Under the pieces are notes generated by a model. It searched no databases. It was not told the origin of the DNA and saw nothing but the letters and a program-made list of their open reading frames with translations. Positions 10,000-19,765 of a stretch of DNA of 41,763 nt are shown piece after piece (position 1 is the stretch's first letter; the number at the start of each line of letters is the position of its first letter). The DNA comes from Candidatus Aminicenantota bacterium (GTDB taxonomy: Bacteria > Acidobacteriota > Aminicenantia > JAMOAD01), in assembly GCA_027031485.1 (NCBI GenBank), contig JALVQI010000072.1, positions 1-41,763 on the forward strand. The letters are read 5' to 3'. Both the position numbers and the translations under genes were made by a program.

Positions 10000-10344
10000 A
10001 CTTCCTCAAAAGCCACAAACAGGATCTTTTCCTATGTAATTTTTTAAATTAAAAGAAATTTGCCAATGATTTAATACAATTAATTTTCATGCTTAGATAA
10101 AGGCTTGAATCTCAATGTTCAAGGTTACTAAGTTGTTAACCTTGTCCGTCCAAAAACAAAATACAAATATTCCCCGGGGCAACCCTCTGCCCGGCACCAA
10201 TTTTTTGATTTAATTTTTCATGGATAATTTTTCTTACTACATTCCTTTCGATTGAAAATTATAGTATTCATTAAGGGGAGTTGGTAATGCCCTTCATCCA
10301 TTGCACTGTTTCCGGGGTTTACCCCTACGGTTACTTGTATTTGA
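10000..10344. repeat. Gene-free stretch holding a decayed copy of the period-7 element family and a GC-rich hairpin
   Basis: Bases about 10035-10130 resemble the middle of the elements at 11936 and 15200: AAAAGAAATTT, then a TTTAATACAATTAA-like segment, then a short run GCTTGAATCTCAATGTTCAA of the period-7 type. Terminal repeats are not recognisable. A GC-rich hairpin, CCGGGGCA/TGCCCGG, lies at 10174-10194 with a T-run after it on the plus strand. No coding signal was seen. Confidence 0.5.
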
Positions 10345-11935: not shown

Positions 11936-12304
11936 CAGTACTGTCCGGGAAATTTCAGGTAGCGAAGAGTTAGTGAGAGCTTTGAGCGTTGAGCATTGAG
12001 CCATGACCTGTTCACTAAGAAAATTGTTAGTTTCTTGTAATTAACAATTTTCTTTATTTAATTTCTTTTAATAAAAGAAATTTACTGATAGCTTAATACA
12101 ATAAACATTCAAAATTGGCTCAACGCTTGATGCTCAATGCTCAAGGCTATTAAGACCTTCAGAATTTAGCTCAGAGCTCAATGCTCATGGCTATCTTGAT
12201 ATCCCATAGGACACCTTCTGTGTTGATTTTTTTGAAAATACTTATATATCATACATCTTCACGCGGAAGTGTCCCAATCCTCTGTTTTTTTCCGGACACT
12301 ACTG
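11936..12304. mobile_element. MITE-like non-coding element, copy 1 (369 bp)
   Basis: Ends are CAGTACTGTCCGG and CCGGACACTACTG, which are inverted repeats of each other with one mismatch. Inside are a period-7 array (11981-12001), a 13-bp perfect hairpin (12017-12029 with 12042-12054), a 10-bp hairpin with a 3-base loop (12060-12069 with 12073-12082), reverse-complement period-7 runs (12117-12151 and about 12169-12195), and a GGACAC...GTGTCC pair (12209-12274). The heptamer CTTAAAT occurs close to both ends but offset by a few bases, so the target duplication is imperfect. No coding capacity. Confidence 0.85.
11981..12001 (+). repeat. Period-7 tandem array in element copy 1
   Basis: Three contiguous heptamers, TTTGAGC, GTTGAGC and ATTGAGC, vary only at the first base. 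They are matched by opposite-strand units at 12117-12151 (GGCTCAA, CGCTTGA, TGCTCAA, TGCTCAA). Confidence 0.85.
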
Positions 12305-15073: not shown

Positions 15074-15280
15074 CAAATCAAATATATAATGTAAAAGGTA
15101 ATTGTTAGTTGTGAATCAATGATGAACAACAGAAAGTTTCGGAACCAGATAATTTTAAGCTATTTTTATCTGATAGTTTTTCATTATTTCAGAGAAAATC
15201 AGTACTGTCCGGGAAATTTCAGGTAGTGAAGAGTTAATAATATCAAAAGTATTAGGAGAAAAAATCCCGCTCCATGATAG

Positions 15281-15322
15281 CTTTGAGCCTTGAGCCATGA
15301 GCGTTGAGCTTTGAGCATTGAG
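15281..15322 (+). repeat. Six-unit period-7 tandem array (consensus CNWTGAG)
   Basis: Six contiguous heptamers are CTTTGAG, CCTTGAG, CCATGAG, CGTTGAG, CTTTGAG and CATTGAG. Only the second and third bases vary. Opposite-strand units occur at 15433-15453 and 15663-15697. Confidence 0.9.
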
Positions 15323-15510
15323 CAGACTACAAAGGAAAGTTGTTAGTTTCTTGTAATTAACAATTTTCTTTATTTAATTTCTTTTAATAAAAGAAATTTA
15401 CTGATAGCTTAATACAATTAACCTTCAAAATTGGCTCAACGCTTGATGCTCAATGCTATTAAGACCTTCAGAATTTAGCTCAATGCTCATGGCTATCAAG
15501 TGCTTTGAGC

Positions 15511-15545
15511 TCAATCGTGAATGGTGAATCGTAAATCGTTAATCG
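15511..15545 (+). repeat. Second, unrelated period-7 array (consensus TNAATSG)
   Basis: Five contiguous heptamers are TCAATCG, TGAATGG, TGAATCG, TAAATCG and TTAATCG. The second base is the main variable position. A short TTGCTGT-TTGCTGT-TGTTTGT run follows at 15566-15586, again with period 7. Both lie in the segment absent from copy 1. Confidence 0.85.
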
Positions 15546-15824
15546 GAGCGGTCGGTGTTCAGTTTATTGCTGTTTGCTGTTGTTTGTAAATTCTTTTTTT
15601 ATAAAATTTGTTTTAAAAGAAAATAACAGATTACAACTTATCAGAGACTTTCCTTAATGTTTTGCTCAATGCTCAATGCTTGATGCTCATGGCTATCTTG
15701 ATATCCCATGGGACACCTCCTGTGTTGATTTCTTTGAAAATACTTATATATCATACTTCTTCACGCGGAGGTGTCCCAATCCTCTGTTTTTTTTCCGGAC
15801 ACTACTGAGAGAAAATCAAGAATA

Positions 15825-15853
15825 TTGACAAGGTACAAAAAAAAAAATATTAT
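15825..15853 (+). promoter_or_regulatory. Promoter of the hybrid histidine kinase gene
   Basis: TTGACA (15825-15830) and TATTAT (15848-15853) are 17 bases apart. The -35 begins eight bases beyond the right target duplication of element copy 2. The ATG at 15878 has no ribosome site. Confidence 0.65.
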
Positions 15854-15877
15854 TATATAATTAAGTGATAAAAAACA

Positions 15878-18800
15878 ATGAAAAATGAGTTAGAGATATT
15901 AGGGAAATTGTTGGATTTTTCATCCGAATGGTTATACTGGATTAACAATAAAGGAGAAGTAGAGTATATTTCAAAAGGTGTGGAAGCAATAACAGGTTAT
16001 TCCCCTGAAGAATTTTTAAAAGATAAGGAGCTTTTTTACAGAATCATCCATGAAAAAGATAAAAAAAAGGTTGAGGGGGAAAATTACCTTAAAAGCAAAA
16101 AAGAAAATACTTTTAATTTTAGAATTATAAGAAAAGACGGAGGAATCGCACACATACGACATCATTGCTCTCCTATCATAGACGAAAAAGGAGAAGTAAC
16201 AGGAAGATTGGGTAAAAACATTGATATCACTGATATATATCAATCGGAAAAAAAAAGAAAAGAGGTAAAAAAAATATTTGAATCATTCTTTGACGAATTT
16301 CCTGAACCAGCTTGTATTATAGACAGAAATTATAAAATTGTTTCAGTAAATAAAAAGATTTTACTGATGACAAAAAAGAAAAGAGAAGATTTAACAGGGA
16401 AAAAATGTTATGAAATATATCAAAACAGAAATAGGCCATGTAAAGTTTGTATTCCCAGAGAAGCATTTAAAAAGAAAACTCCTGTAATAAAGGAAAAAAA
16501 GGTATCTTTTAAAAACGGTGAAACGAAATTCTTTGAGATATGGGGACTGCCTGTGGTGGAAGAGAAAAACGAAATTCCTTTTATAATCGGGGTTTTAAGG
16601 GATAAAACAGAAAAAAGGATTCTTGAGAAACAAAAAAGAGAAAAGGAAGAAAAATTGGAAAGAATTATAAAAACCATTCCGGATACTCTCTTTTACTTTG
16701 ACAAAAAAGGATTTATCATAGATTACCAGGGAGCGGGAAGACCCTTTAGTTCTCTTTCAAGGGAAAGGTTTTTAAATAAAAATGTCAAAGAAATTCTCCC
16801 TCAACCCTTCGGACAAAAAGCTTACAAATTGGGAAGAAAAGCTATAAGGGAACAAAAACTTCAAACAGTTGAATTCCCCTTAATCATAGGGAAAAGAGAA
16901 AGGTTTTTTGAGGCAAGAATAATACCGGATAAAAAAACCAATGCACTGGCAATTGTAAGGGATATAACAAGAGAAAAAGAATTAGAAAAAGTTCTTCAAG
17001 AAACAAATATAATGTATGAAGAGATTTTAAAAAATTCACCAATAGGTATTATTAAAGCGGATAAAAAGGGAAATATTCTTTTTGCAAACAAAAGAAGTGC
17101 TGAAATATTTGGTTCTCCTTCGGTAGAACATACTATGAAAATCAATATTCTAAAATTTCATAGATTAAAGGAAGTCGGTCTTTCAGCAAAGTTTAAGGAA
17201 GCTATAGAAAAAGGAAAACAACAGCAATTTGAAAGCCTTTATACATCAAAATGGGGGAAAGAGGCATTCCTTAGAATTAAAATTTCTCCGCTTTTTGACA
17301 AAAAAAATAAAACAAACGGAGCTTTATTAGTAGTGGAAGATTTTACAATTGAATATATCCTTACAAAAAATCTTGAGTTCAGTGAAGAGAAATTAAAAGC
17401 AATTTTCCTAAACATAAAAGATGGTATCATGCTTGTAAATGAGTATTCAATTGTGGAAGAAGTAAACCCCGCAATAGAACAAATAACAGGATATAAAAGG
17501 AAAGAATTAATTGGAAAAGAATTGTATAAAATCTCATACAATCTTCTGCCAGGTAACAAAAGAAAAAAGATAACCCTAAAAAAGTATAAAACAGAGTTTG
17601 AAAGAAAAATGATAAAATTAAAAAAATATATGGACAAAAACAAATTTGCCAGATCAGAAGTTGAAATAGAAAAAAAAGATGGTTCAAAACGATATCTTGA
17701 GGAATCTTATTTTCCAATAGAGGTGGAAAATAAAAAGTTAATCGTAAGTATAAAAAGGGACATTACCTCTGAAAAAGAGATGATGATACAGCTTTTAAAA
17801 AGTAAAGAAAAATACAAAAAAGATTTTAAACTTTTCAGATTAATTGCAGATAATTCATCCGATTTTATCTGGGCAAAAGATAAAAATGGTAGATACATTT
17901 TTGTAAACAAAGCATATGCAAAAATTCTCTTTAACACTGGAGATGTGTTAGCTCCTCTGGGAAAAAGAGATAAGACAATCTGTAATAAAATAAAAAGGGA
18001 AAACAGAAAGAGTAATAATTGGAATACCCTATGTGATAAGACGGAAAAGTATGATAAAAAAGTTTTAGAAGAAAAAAGAGCTATTCAGTATGAGATAGAG
18101 GGTTTTTTAAGGGGTCAGTATTATGCTTTCAGTGTTTCAACAGCTCCTCTCTTCAATGAAAAGGGAGAAGTAATTGGACTCGTTGGTAGTGGAAGAGACA
18201 TTACAAAGGAAAAAGAGCTTGAAAAGCAAAAAAAGGTGATAGAGGAAGAACATAAAAGGCTTGCTATGGTTATAGAACAGTCAACAGAAGCTGTTATGAT
18301 TACTGATATAAATGGAAATCTCCTTTATGTCAACCCTGCTTTTGAAAAAAACACTGGATACAGTGCCAAAGAGGTAATAGGAAAAAATCCGAGGTTTTTA
18401 AAAAGCGGGGAACACTCTAAAAAGTTTTATGAAAAACTCTGGAATACAATACTTTCCGGGAAAACATGGAATGGTATCTTTAAAAATAGAAGAAAAGATG
18501 GTTCCATCTTTTATGAAAGTGCCATAATATTGCCTATTCACAATGAAAAGAGAGAAATCGAATTTTTTGCAGGTTTAAAGAAAGATATAACCCAGGAGAA
18601 AGTTTTAAGGGAACAATTATCTCAAGCACAAAAAATGGAAGCCATAGGTACCCTGACGGGAGGAATAGCCCATGATTTCAACAATATATTAACTGTTATA
18701 AATGGTTATGCTGATCTATTACTTAGAAAAAGTAAAGATGATAGTCCAAATTACAAAATTTACAAGGAAATTAGAGCTGCGGGGGAAAGATCTACAAAAC

Positions 18801-19765
18801 TTATAAAGCAACTTCTCGCGTTCAGTAGAAAACAGATATACTCACCCGAAATAGTAAATATCAACACTCTTATCACAAACTTAAAGAAAATGTTATCAAG
18901 ACTTATCAGTGAAGATATTTCAATAAAATTAAATTTGTCTCCAGAAATATCTCTTATTAAAGCAGACCCTGGTCAAATTGAGCAAATATTAATAAATCTT
19001 GTCGTAAATGCAAGAGATGCTATTCAGGAAAGTGGGAAAACAGAAAAAAAGATTATCATAAGTACAAAGGATGTACACATTGACAGAGATTTTGCACTAC
19101 TTCACGGGGGGAAGAGAGAGGGGAAATTTGTAAAAATTTCAGTGAGTGATAATGGAATCGGAATGGACAAGGAAACAATAAAAAAAATATTTGACCCATT
19201 CTTTACAACAAAGGAGAAAGGAAAGGGTACCGGTCTCGGATTATCAACTGTTTATGGAATTATAAAACAAAACGATGGGTTTATCTATGTTTATAGTGAA
19301 AAAGGAAAGGGAACTGTTTTTAATATATACTGGCCTGTAGTGAAAGAGGAAAGCAAAAAAGATACAGAAAAAAATAAGGTTGAGGAAATTAAGGGTGGAA
19401 ATGAGACAATTTTATTGATTGAAGATAACAGAGAGGTTTTAGAATTTTCAAAGACAGGACTTTCCGATTATGGTTATAATATCATCGGAATGGATGATCC
19501 ACTCAAAGTTATTCCTTTTTTAAAAGAAGAAAAACCGGATATAAATCTTGTTATCTCGGATGTTGTTATGCCCGGAATTAACGGGAAAGAATTAATAAAA
19601 AAGATAAAAGAGCTTTATCCTGATATAAAGATAATTTTCACATCAGGATATACAGATGACGAAGTATTAAATATCAAGATAAAAGATAAAAGTGTAAACT
19701 TTATCAATAAACCTTATACAATAAGGGAATTGGCTTTCTTTGTAAGAAAGGTATTGGACAGTTAA
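15878..19765 (+). CDS. Soluble multi-PAS hybrid histidine kinase with C-terminal receiver
   Basis: This 1295-residue sensor has no membrane segment or signal peptide and should act in the cytoplasm. About seven PAS domains can be counted (roughly 8-120, 128-245, 258-372, 380-500, 505-640, 655-785, 800-915). A HisKA domain follows with His932 in GGIAHDFNNIL, then an ATPase domain with LVVNARDAI, VSDNGIGMD and GTGLGLSTVYG. A receiver ends the protein, with Asp1228 in SDVVMPG. PAS2 holds a Cys pattern, GKKCYEIYQ...CKVC, of the kind seen in PAS domains that may bind metal or sense redox; ligands are unknown. No ribosome site precedes the ATG. A partner regulator is not adjacent; the chemoreceptor downstream has its own promoter. 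Confidence 0.93.
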   Translation: MKNELEILGKLLDFSSEWLYWINNKGEVEYISKGVEAITGYSPEEFLKDKELFYRIIHEKDKKKVEGENYLKSKKENTFNFRIIRKDGGIAHIRHHCSPIIDEKGEVTGRLGKNIDITDIYQSEKKRKEVKKIFESFFDEFPEPACIIDRNYKIVSVNKKILLMTKKKREDLTGKKCYEIYQNRNRPCKVCIPREAFKKKTPVIKEKKVSFKNGETKFFEIWGLPVVEEKNEIPFIIGVLRDKTEKRILEKQKREKEEKLERIIKTIPDTLFYFDKKGFIIDYQGAGRPFSSLSRERFLNKNVKEILPQPFGQKAYKLGRKAIREQKLQTVEFPLIIGKRERFFEARIIPDKKTNALAIVRDITREKELEKVLQETNIMYEEILKNSPIGIIKADKKGNILFANKRSAEIFGSPSVEHTMKINILKFHRLKEVGLSAKFKEAIEKGKQQQFESLYTSKWGKEAFLRIKISPLFDKKNKTNGALLVVEDFTIEYILTKNLEFSEEKLKAIFLNIKDGIMLVNEYSIVEEVNPAIEQITGYKRKELIGKELYKISYNLLPGNKRKKITLKKYKTEFERKMIKLKKYMDKNKFARSEVEIEKKDGSKRYLEESYFPIEVENKKLIVSIKRDITSEKEMMIQLLKSKEKYKKDFKLFRLIADNSSDFIWAKDKNGRYIFVNKAYAKILFNTGDVLAPLGKRDKTICNKIKRENRKSNNWNTLCDKTEKYDKKVLEEKRAIQYEIEGFLRGQYYAFSVSTAPLFNEKGEVIGLVGSGRDITKEKELEKQKKVIEEEHKRLAMVIEQSTEAVMITDINGNLLYVNPAFEKNTGYSAKEVIGKNPRFLKSGEHSKKFYEKLWNTILSGKTWNGIFKNRRKDGSIFYESAIILPIHNEKREIEFFAGLKKDITQEKVLREQLSQAQKMEAIGTLTGGIAHDFNNILTVINGYADLLLRKSKDDSPNYKIYKEIRAAGERSTKLIKQLLAFSRKQIYSPEIVNINTLITNLKKMLSRLISEDISIKLNLSPEISLIKADPGQIEQILINLVVNARDAIQESGKTEKKIIISTKDVHIDRDFALLHGGKREGKFVKISVSDNGIGMDKETIKKIFDPFFTTKEKGKGTGLGLSTVYGIIKQNDGFIYVYSEKGKGTVFNIYWPVVKEESKKDTEKNKVEEIKGGNETILLIEDNREVLEFSKTGLSDYGYNIIGMDDPLKVIPFLKEEKPDINLVISDVVMPGINGKELIKKIKELYPDIKIIFTSGYTDDEVLNIKIKDKSVNFINKPYTIRELAFFVRKVLDS

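Follow-up and report, generated by a model that had tools for sequence, protein, structure and literature searches.

Heptamer repeats of the STRR type are found in Calothrix and Nostoc. That heptamers are over-represented in bacteria has been on record since 2007; one paper states that the literature contains no detailed treatment devoted to them (PMC4692102). The GGGAATC heptamers of Xanthomonas lie on average 28 nt behind the upstream ORF (PMC4692102), and the TAACTGA arrays of Beggiatoaceae comprise two to six units, the forward repeats stopping all three reading frames (PMC4679880). Many REP/BIME palindromes (GTAG- and CGTC-tagged) are located no more than 20 bp from the 3′ end of a gene, and the terminal TAG of a REP often supplies the stop codon of the ORF (PMC3733652). 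A tandem array residing inside a multi-copy intergenic MITE is known from BrickBuilt, a minisatellite-bearing element of Porphyromonas gingivalis (PMC4596501).

The locus described here combines these known kinds, i.e. heptamer repeats, REP-like palindromes and MITEs, and what is unusual is its pattern of variation. Like heptamer STRR/SSR, it displays short intergenic arrays at many loci, which vary in length and sequence among relatives. However, the published examples are mostly uniform single arrays, whereas the arrays described here form inverted arms around a conserved core of their own, with two positions varying within every array. Abundance, intergenic location and palindromic structure near gene 3′ ends are shared with REP/BIME, but those measure 20–40 bp, as compared to 165–220 bp here, where heptamer arms are present and a GTAG/CGTC-tagged stem is absent. 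The RAYT (Y1) gene associated with REP/BIME also has no counterpart: a Y1/RAYT transposase (PF01797) was detected neither in the genome under study (G000) nor in G001, a congener at ~90–95% identity, and RAYT was rejected as mobiliser of the repeat for this reason. One RAYT-like PF01797 match belongs to G002, a congener without arrays (C171:1031–1327, L332). The carrier resembles IS4-family MITEs in its terminal inverted repeats, which it shares with an IS4 element of the same genome, in its 9-bp target-site duplication and in the lack of its own transposase, but its interior consists of two captured resident repeats instead of a mere IS deletion. BrickBuilt, finally, differs by its 23-nt units, its single central array, its constant distance of at least 49 nt from genes, and the absence of paired heptamer arms.

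A degenerate heptamer array

In the window, i.e. the whole stretch of 41,763 nucleotides that was analysed, six contiguous units (CTTTGAG, CCTTGAG, CCATGAG, CGTTGAG, CTTTGAG and CATTGAG) occupy positions 15281–15322 of the forward strand (15282–15323 in the phase NWTGAGC; array 1). Bases 2 and 3 vary among these six units and the core is constant; an A at the third base is confined to the position after C (CCATGAG). TRF calls the repeat at 15279–15323 with period 7 and 6.4 copies. The top period-7 run of the window reaches a score of 27 and ends at array 1. By comparison, 100 dinucleotide-shuffled versions of the whole window reached at most 15, and 1000 shuffled versions of the element at most 13; among periods 3–6 and 8–13 the top score in the window is 16. 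If at most 2 mismatches are allowed, the three-unit pattern TTGAGCNWTGAGCNWTGAGC matches the genome 119 + 120 times, and the same pattern read backwards matches it 0 times. The six-unit period-7 array with variation at two positions, as described in the initial annotation, is thereby confirmed, and the two objections anticipated there, namely equal scores in shuffled sequence and lack of other phased copies, are both ruled out.

Units on the opposite strand to the right of array 1 are present as well, in a degraded array 2 (15434–15459) and in array 4 (15663–15697). A third, short group on the same strand (array 3, 15475–15494) had been overlooked.

The carrier is an IS4-type MITE

Array 1 and its opposite-strand counterparts are carried by a 608-bp non-autonomous IS4-type element (MITE) without transposase ORF at 15200–15807, identified from its terminal inverted repeats, its 9-bp target-site duplication, an empty site in the congener and other copies in its own genome. 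The terminal inverted repeats are CAGTACTGTCCGGGAAA on the left (15200–15216, forward strand) and CAGTAGTGTCCGGAAAA on the right (15791–15807, read on the reverse strand); the element begins with CAGTACTGTCCGG and ends with CCGGACACTACTG. The duplication AGAGAAAAT is located at 15191–15199 and again at 15808–15816. Contig C318 of G001 provides a precise empty site, in which TTTCAGAGAAAATCAAGAATATTG is uninterrupted and AGAGAAAAT is single; therefore, the insertion postdates the split of the two species. The mobile-element setting proposed for the array thus proved correct.

There is no ORF of at least 80 aa inside the element. An autonomous relative of 1.33 kb (C39:1184–2512) has ends of the same kind (CAGTACTG/CAGTAGTG) and encodes a 392-aa DDE transposase (PF01609, 3e-29; NF033592 IS4 family, 1.2e-70), which identifies the window element as a MITE of an IS4-family element. 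Copies near full length are found on contigs C142, C153, C7, C145 and C2, and shortened copies elsewhere. One of the latter lies in the window itself (11936–12304, forward strand); it is internally deleted, bears arrays of its own, and is absent from contig C350 of G001, where the site differs. Many contigs (e.g. C125, C126, C200, C214, C242) start or end no farther than ~130 bp from where the IS4-type element has its right end, and the true copy number therefore exceeds that of the assembly.

The MITE is inserted between divergent genes, 71 bp before a gene for a PAS histidine kinase (15878–19765). The promoter of this 1295-aa PAS-rich hybrid kinase may be affected by the presence of the MITE in the divergent intergenic region (15200–15877).

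The cargo is a resident palindromic repeat

The initial annotation had treated the heptamers as a feature of the mobile element itself. This has to be revised: rather than belonging to the transposon, the arrays form the arms of an abundant palindromic repeat, separate from it and resident in the genome, that the MITE captured. In this repeat, two converging NWTGAGC arrays enclose a conserved directional core of ~110 bp; over its full length of 165–220 bp, 3–6 heptamers are followed by the core and by 3–6 heptamers on the other strand. There are 102 distinct intergenic arrays of 3–6 units each, spread over many loci. Outside the MITE, converging pairs 108–125 bp apart occur in nine loci, and matches to a core HMM adjoin nearly every array. 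The core model R1 yields 146 matches in the own genome and 53 in G001, where one site may contribute a match on each strand; reduced to places, this corresponds by our own count to ~90–100 and ~28, respectively.

The interior of the MITE contains two such cores. Module 1 (15324–15433, canonical direction on the reverse strand) is covered by a core HMM match and by an R1 match at 15296–15457 on the reverse strand; module 2 (15545–15662, forward strand) likewise by the core HMM and by an R1 match at 15568–15691 on the forward strand. The two cores stand head to head, which accounts for the long inverted repeat of heptamers that had been reported for this element. A degraded copy of the resident repeat is present at 10020–10121 on the reverse strand (R1 match, E 2e-7).

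The left and right halves of the core each occur in several types, which recombine into mosaics of interchangeable halves. One left type bears a second heptamer array (GTGAATN). In module 2 it is represented by GTGAATG, GTGAATC, GTAAATC and GTTAATC (15517–15544, forward strand), situated in a type-B left half and arranged in the same way at three other loci (L221, L229, L077). Heptamer families besides TGAGC (GTGAATN, ACTTCTC, AACGAAG) share intergenic regions with the TGAGC arrays, as in the window at 15517–15544 and at L089:382–870.

Judged from its copy number, the resident repeat is probably mobile. A clean empty site or target-site duplication of a solo repeat was not found in the comparison of locus L305 with G001 and G002. 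At this locus (600–1010, C81) and its counterparts (G001 C149, G002 C197), one orthologous gene end carries three different palindromes in three species. The own copy at L305 is a heptamer repeat in which a GTAGGGGCAATTCATGAATTGCCCCTAC palindrome is nested, and the latter recurs in many loci.

Among 60 relatives searched, the own genome included, the strict pattern is restricted to the own genome and one of two congeners. In other phyla the same heptamer forms mostly uniform arrays and a few mixed ones. Inverted heptamer pairs also occur there (L114, L136, L145, L171), so that the layout is not unique.

Variation of the arrays

Across 65 distinct array sequences the letters TGAGC are fixed, N can be any of the four bases, and T predominates at W. 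The units within an array, which in STRR are largely identical, are not so here. Ten orthologous alignments between the own genome and G001 display differences at 16/76 N/W sites (21%) and at 3/194 sites of the TGAGC core, as compared to 126/1620 (~8%) in flanks within 120 bp and 5.4% in farther flanks (Fisher 3e-4 and 5e-4). If the array is called in one species only, N/W sites differ at 21%, versus 2.7% in the core and a comparison value of 5.8%. If it is callable in either species, the core differs at 4.3% versus 5.7%, and its conservation is then not significant. The excess at N/W is robust, with the reservation that alignment choices affect these 76 sites from two genomes; conservation of the core is less robust.

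For the array, the initial annotation had proposed microsatellite slippage together with a core kept by selection, which might be a protein-binding site recurring every 7 bp. One part of this proposal stands: a 7-bp gap is present in 4/10 orthologous alignments, so that unit number does vary between relatives, and whole-unit indels between species are what slippage would produce. The core positions changing least when arrays are called in both species is also in agreement with it. However, adjacent units are identical in 27/212 cases, versus 33 ± 5 expected for units dealt at random. Slippage predicts that neighbours are alike, as they are in other genomes, where this heptamer mostly forms uniform arrays, and pure slippage was rejected on this ground. 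Purifying selection on the core alone would leave unexplained why the free positions outpace the neighbouring DNA, and a candidate binding protein was not found. Taken together, we consider this explanation unlikely.

A different process may be suggested by the window copy of the MITE. In the stretch 15238–15291 (forward strand), unique to this copy according to the copy alignment and the comparison with locus L082, a foreign outer flank and outer array units (CCATGATAGC followed by TTTGAGC) stand beside units common to the sister copies. This arrangement may result from an exchange within the array, and the mosaic structure of the cores points in the same direction; exchange between arrays could be anchored on the common TGAGC core. 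A more far-reaching version, which we regard as quite unlikely, would be concerted evolution of the ~100 arrays: units would be exchanged via the 5-bp cores, yielding two hypervariable bases per unit (above the local neutral rate) with period and core fixed, possibly by a dedicated activity and not by ordinary slippage or recombination.

Position relative to genes

The position of the arrays was assessed in 29 intergenic regions for which both neighbouring genes had been called (ORFs called mechanically, loci collected by their arrays). Of 34 gene 3′ ends, 11 have an array no farther than 24 bp away, as compared to 4.2 expected under uniform placement (P 0.0005, or P 0.002 if starts are avoided), and 0/24 gene starts have one within 36 bp.

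Several genes end inside the repeat. A multi-copy gene with AAA-ATPase and PD-(D/E)XK domains (PF09820 + PF08011) exists in ~16 copies or fragments in the own genome (e.g. C161:27718–29295, C50, C1, C111, C236, C40) and in G001 (C190, L223:1259–2845). The C161 copy stops in the third heptamer and has lost its last codons (...YKVEKALSIEL*, versus YKVEVL* in other copies). At L077, too, the gene terminates in the third unit, and the genes at L096 and L098 use the TAG of the leading ATAGC.

These cases fit the idea that a TGA every 7 bp closes each reading frame after no more than three units, at either end of the repeat, which would make insertion of the repeat at a gene end harmless. Read inward, 81/102 distinct arrays stop all three frames and the rest two, and read outward 54/102 are without any stop. 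Nevertheless, we consider it improbable that this property shaped the arrays. Substitutions in the core keep the stop in 25/44 cases, near the chance expectation of 47%, and GC is conserved to the same degree as TGA; with such a substitution spectrum, stop codons were rejected as the selected feature. Moreover, AT-rich DNA soon gives stops anyway, and neither the AACGAAG family at L089 nor known heptamers such as GGGAATC of Xanthomonas contain stops (PMC4692102).

Folding and remaining alternatives

As single-stranded DNA, a single module folds with −30.7 kcal/mol (z −5.2) and the whole interior with z −6.5. This strong fold would agree with a hairpin or structured RNA in which selection maintains the complementarity of the arms, in line with the RNA interpretation offered earlier. 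However, the pairs of the predicted consensus fold are all situated in the invariant cores, with no compensatory pairs among them. Cross-arm pairing including N/W amounts to 76.9% of cells versus 77.3% in shuffled data, and the covariation score is not above that of shuffles. Rfam returned chance-level matches only, far below gathering scores. The palindrome is real, yet nothing indicates that it is maintained by selection as an RNA, and we consider the RNA interpretation very unlikely.

It is also highly improbable that the heptamer elements are the ends or a non-autonomous form of the AAA-ATPase/PD-(D/E)XK gene (PF09820/PF08011): although, by our reading, 6 of its ~16 copies in the own genome have a repeat no farther than ~120 bp away, mostly 6–70 bp behind the stop codon, and one copy in G001 is bracketed by repeats on both sides, the distances are not fixed, several copies are without array, the unit common to the copies reaches about as far as the ORF, and the repeats also adjoin many unrelated genes. 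As a neighbour at varying distances only, the gene was rejected as mobiliser.

Interpretation

We hypothesize, with a probability of roughly 0.78 for the explanation as a whole, that an arm-bearing resident repeat was captured by a MITE, that its arrays change by gain and loss of units and by exchange, and that its placement is REP-like. According to this model, two resident repeats in head-to-head orientation were captured by the IS4-family MITE, which, as the empty site indicates, transposed into 15191–15816 after the split from G001. The arrays change as entire units are gained or lost, and they may swap units with other arrays of the genome by means of the common TGAGC core; such exchange would keep the core uniform and let the two free positions change faster than the neighbouring DNA. 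By analogy with REP/BIME, the resident repeats behind stop codons may act, or be tolerated, as 3′-end hairpins.

With ~100 short non-uniform arrays, a fixed anatomy and a close congener, this genus constitutes a tractable case for the study of heptamer repeats, in which per-position rates separate the free from the fixed bases. The repeat links three kinds of sequence that are usually treated apart, namely heptamer repeats, REP-like palindromes at gene ends, and MITEs.
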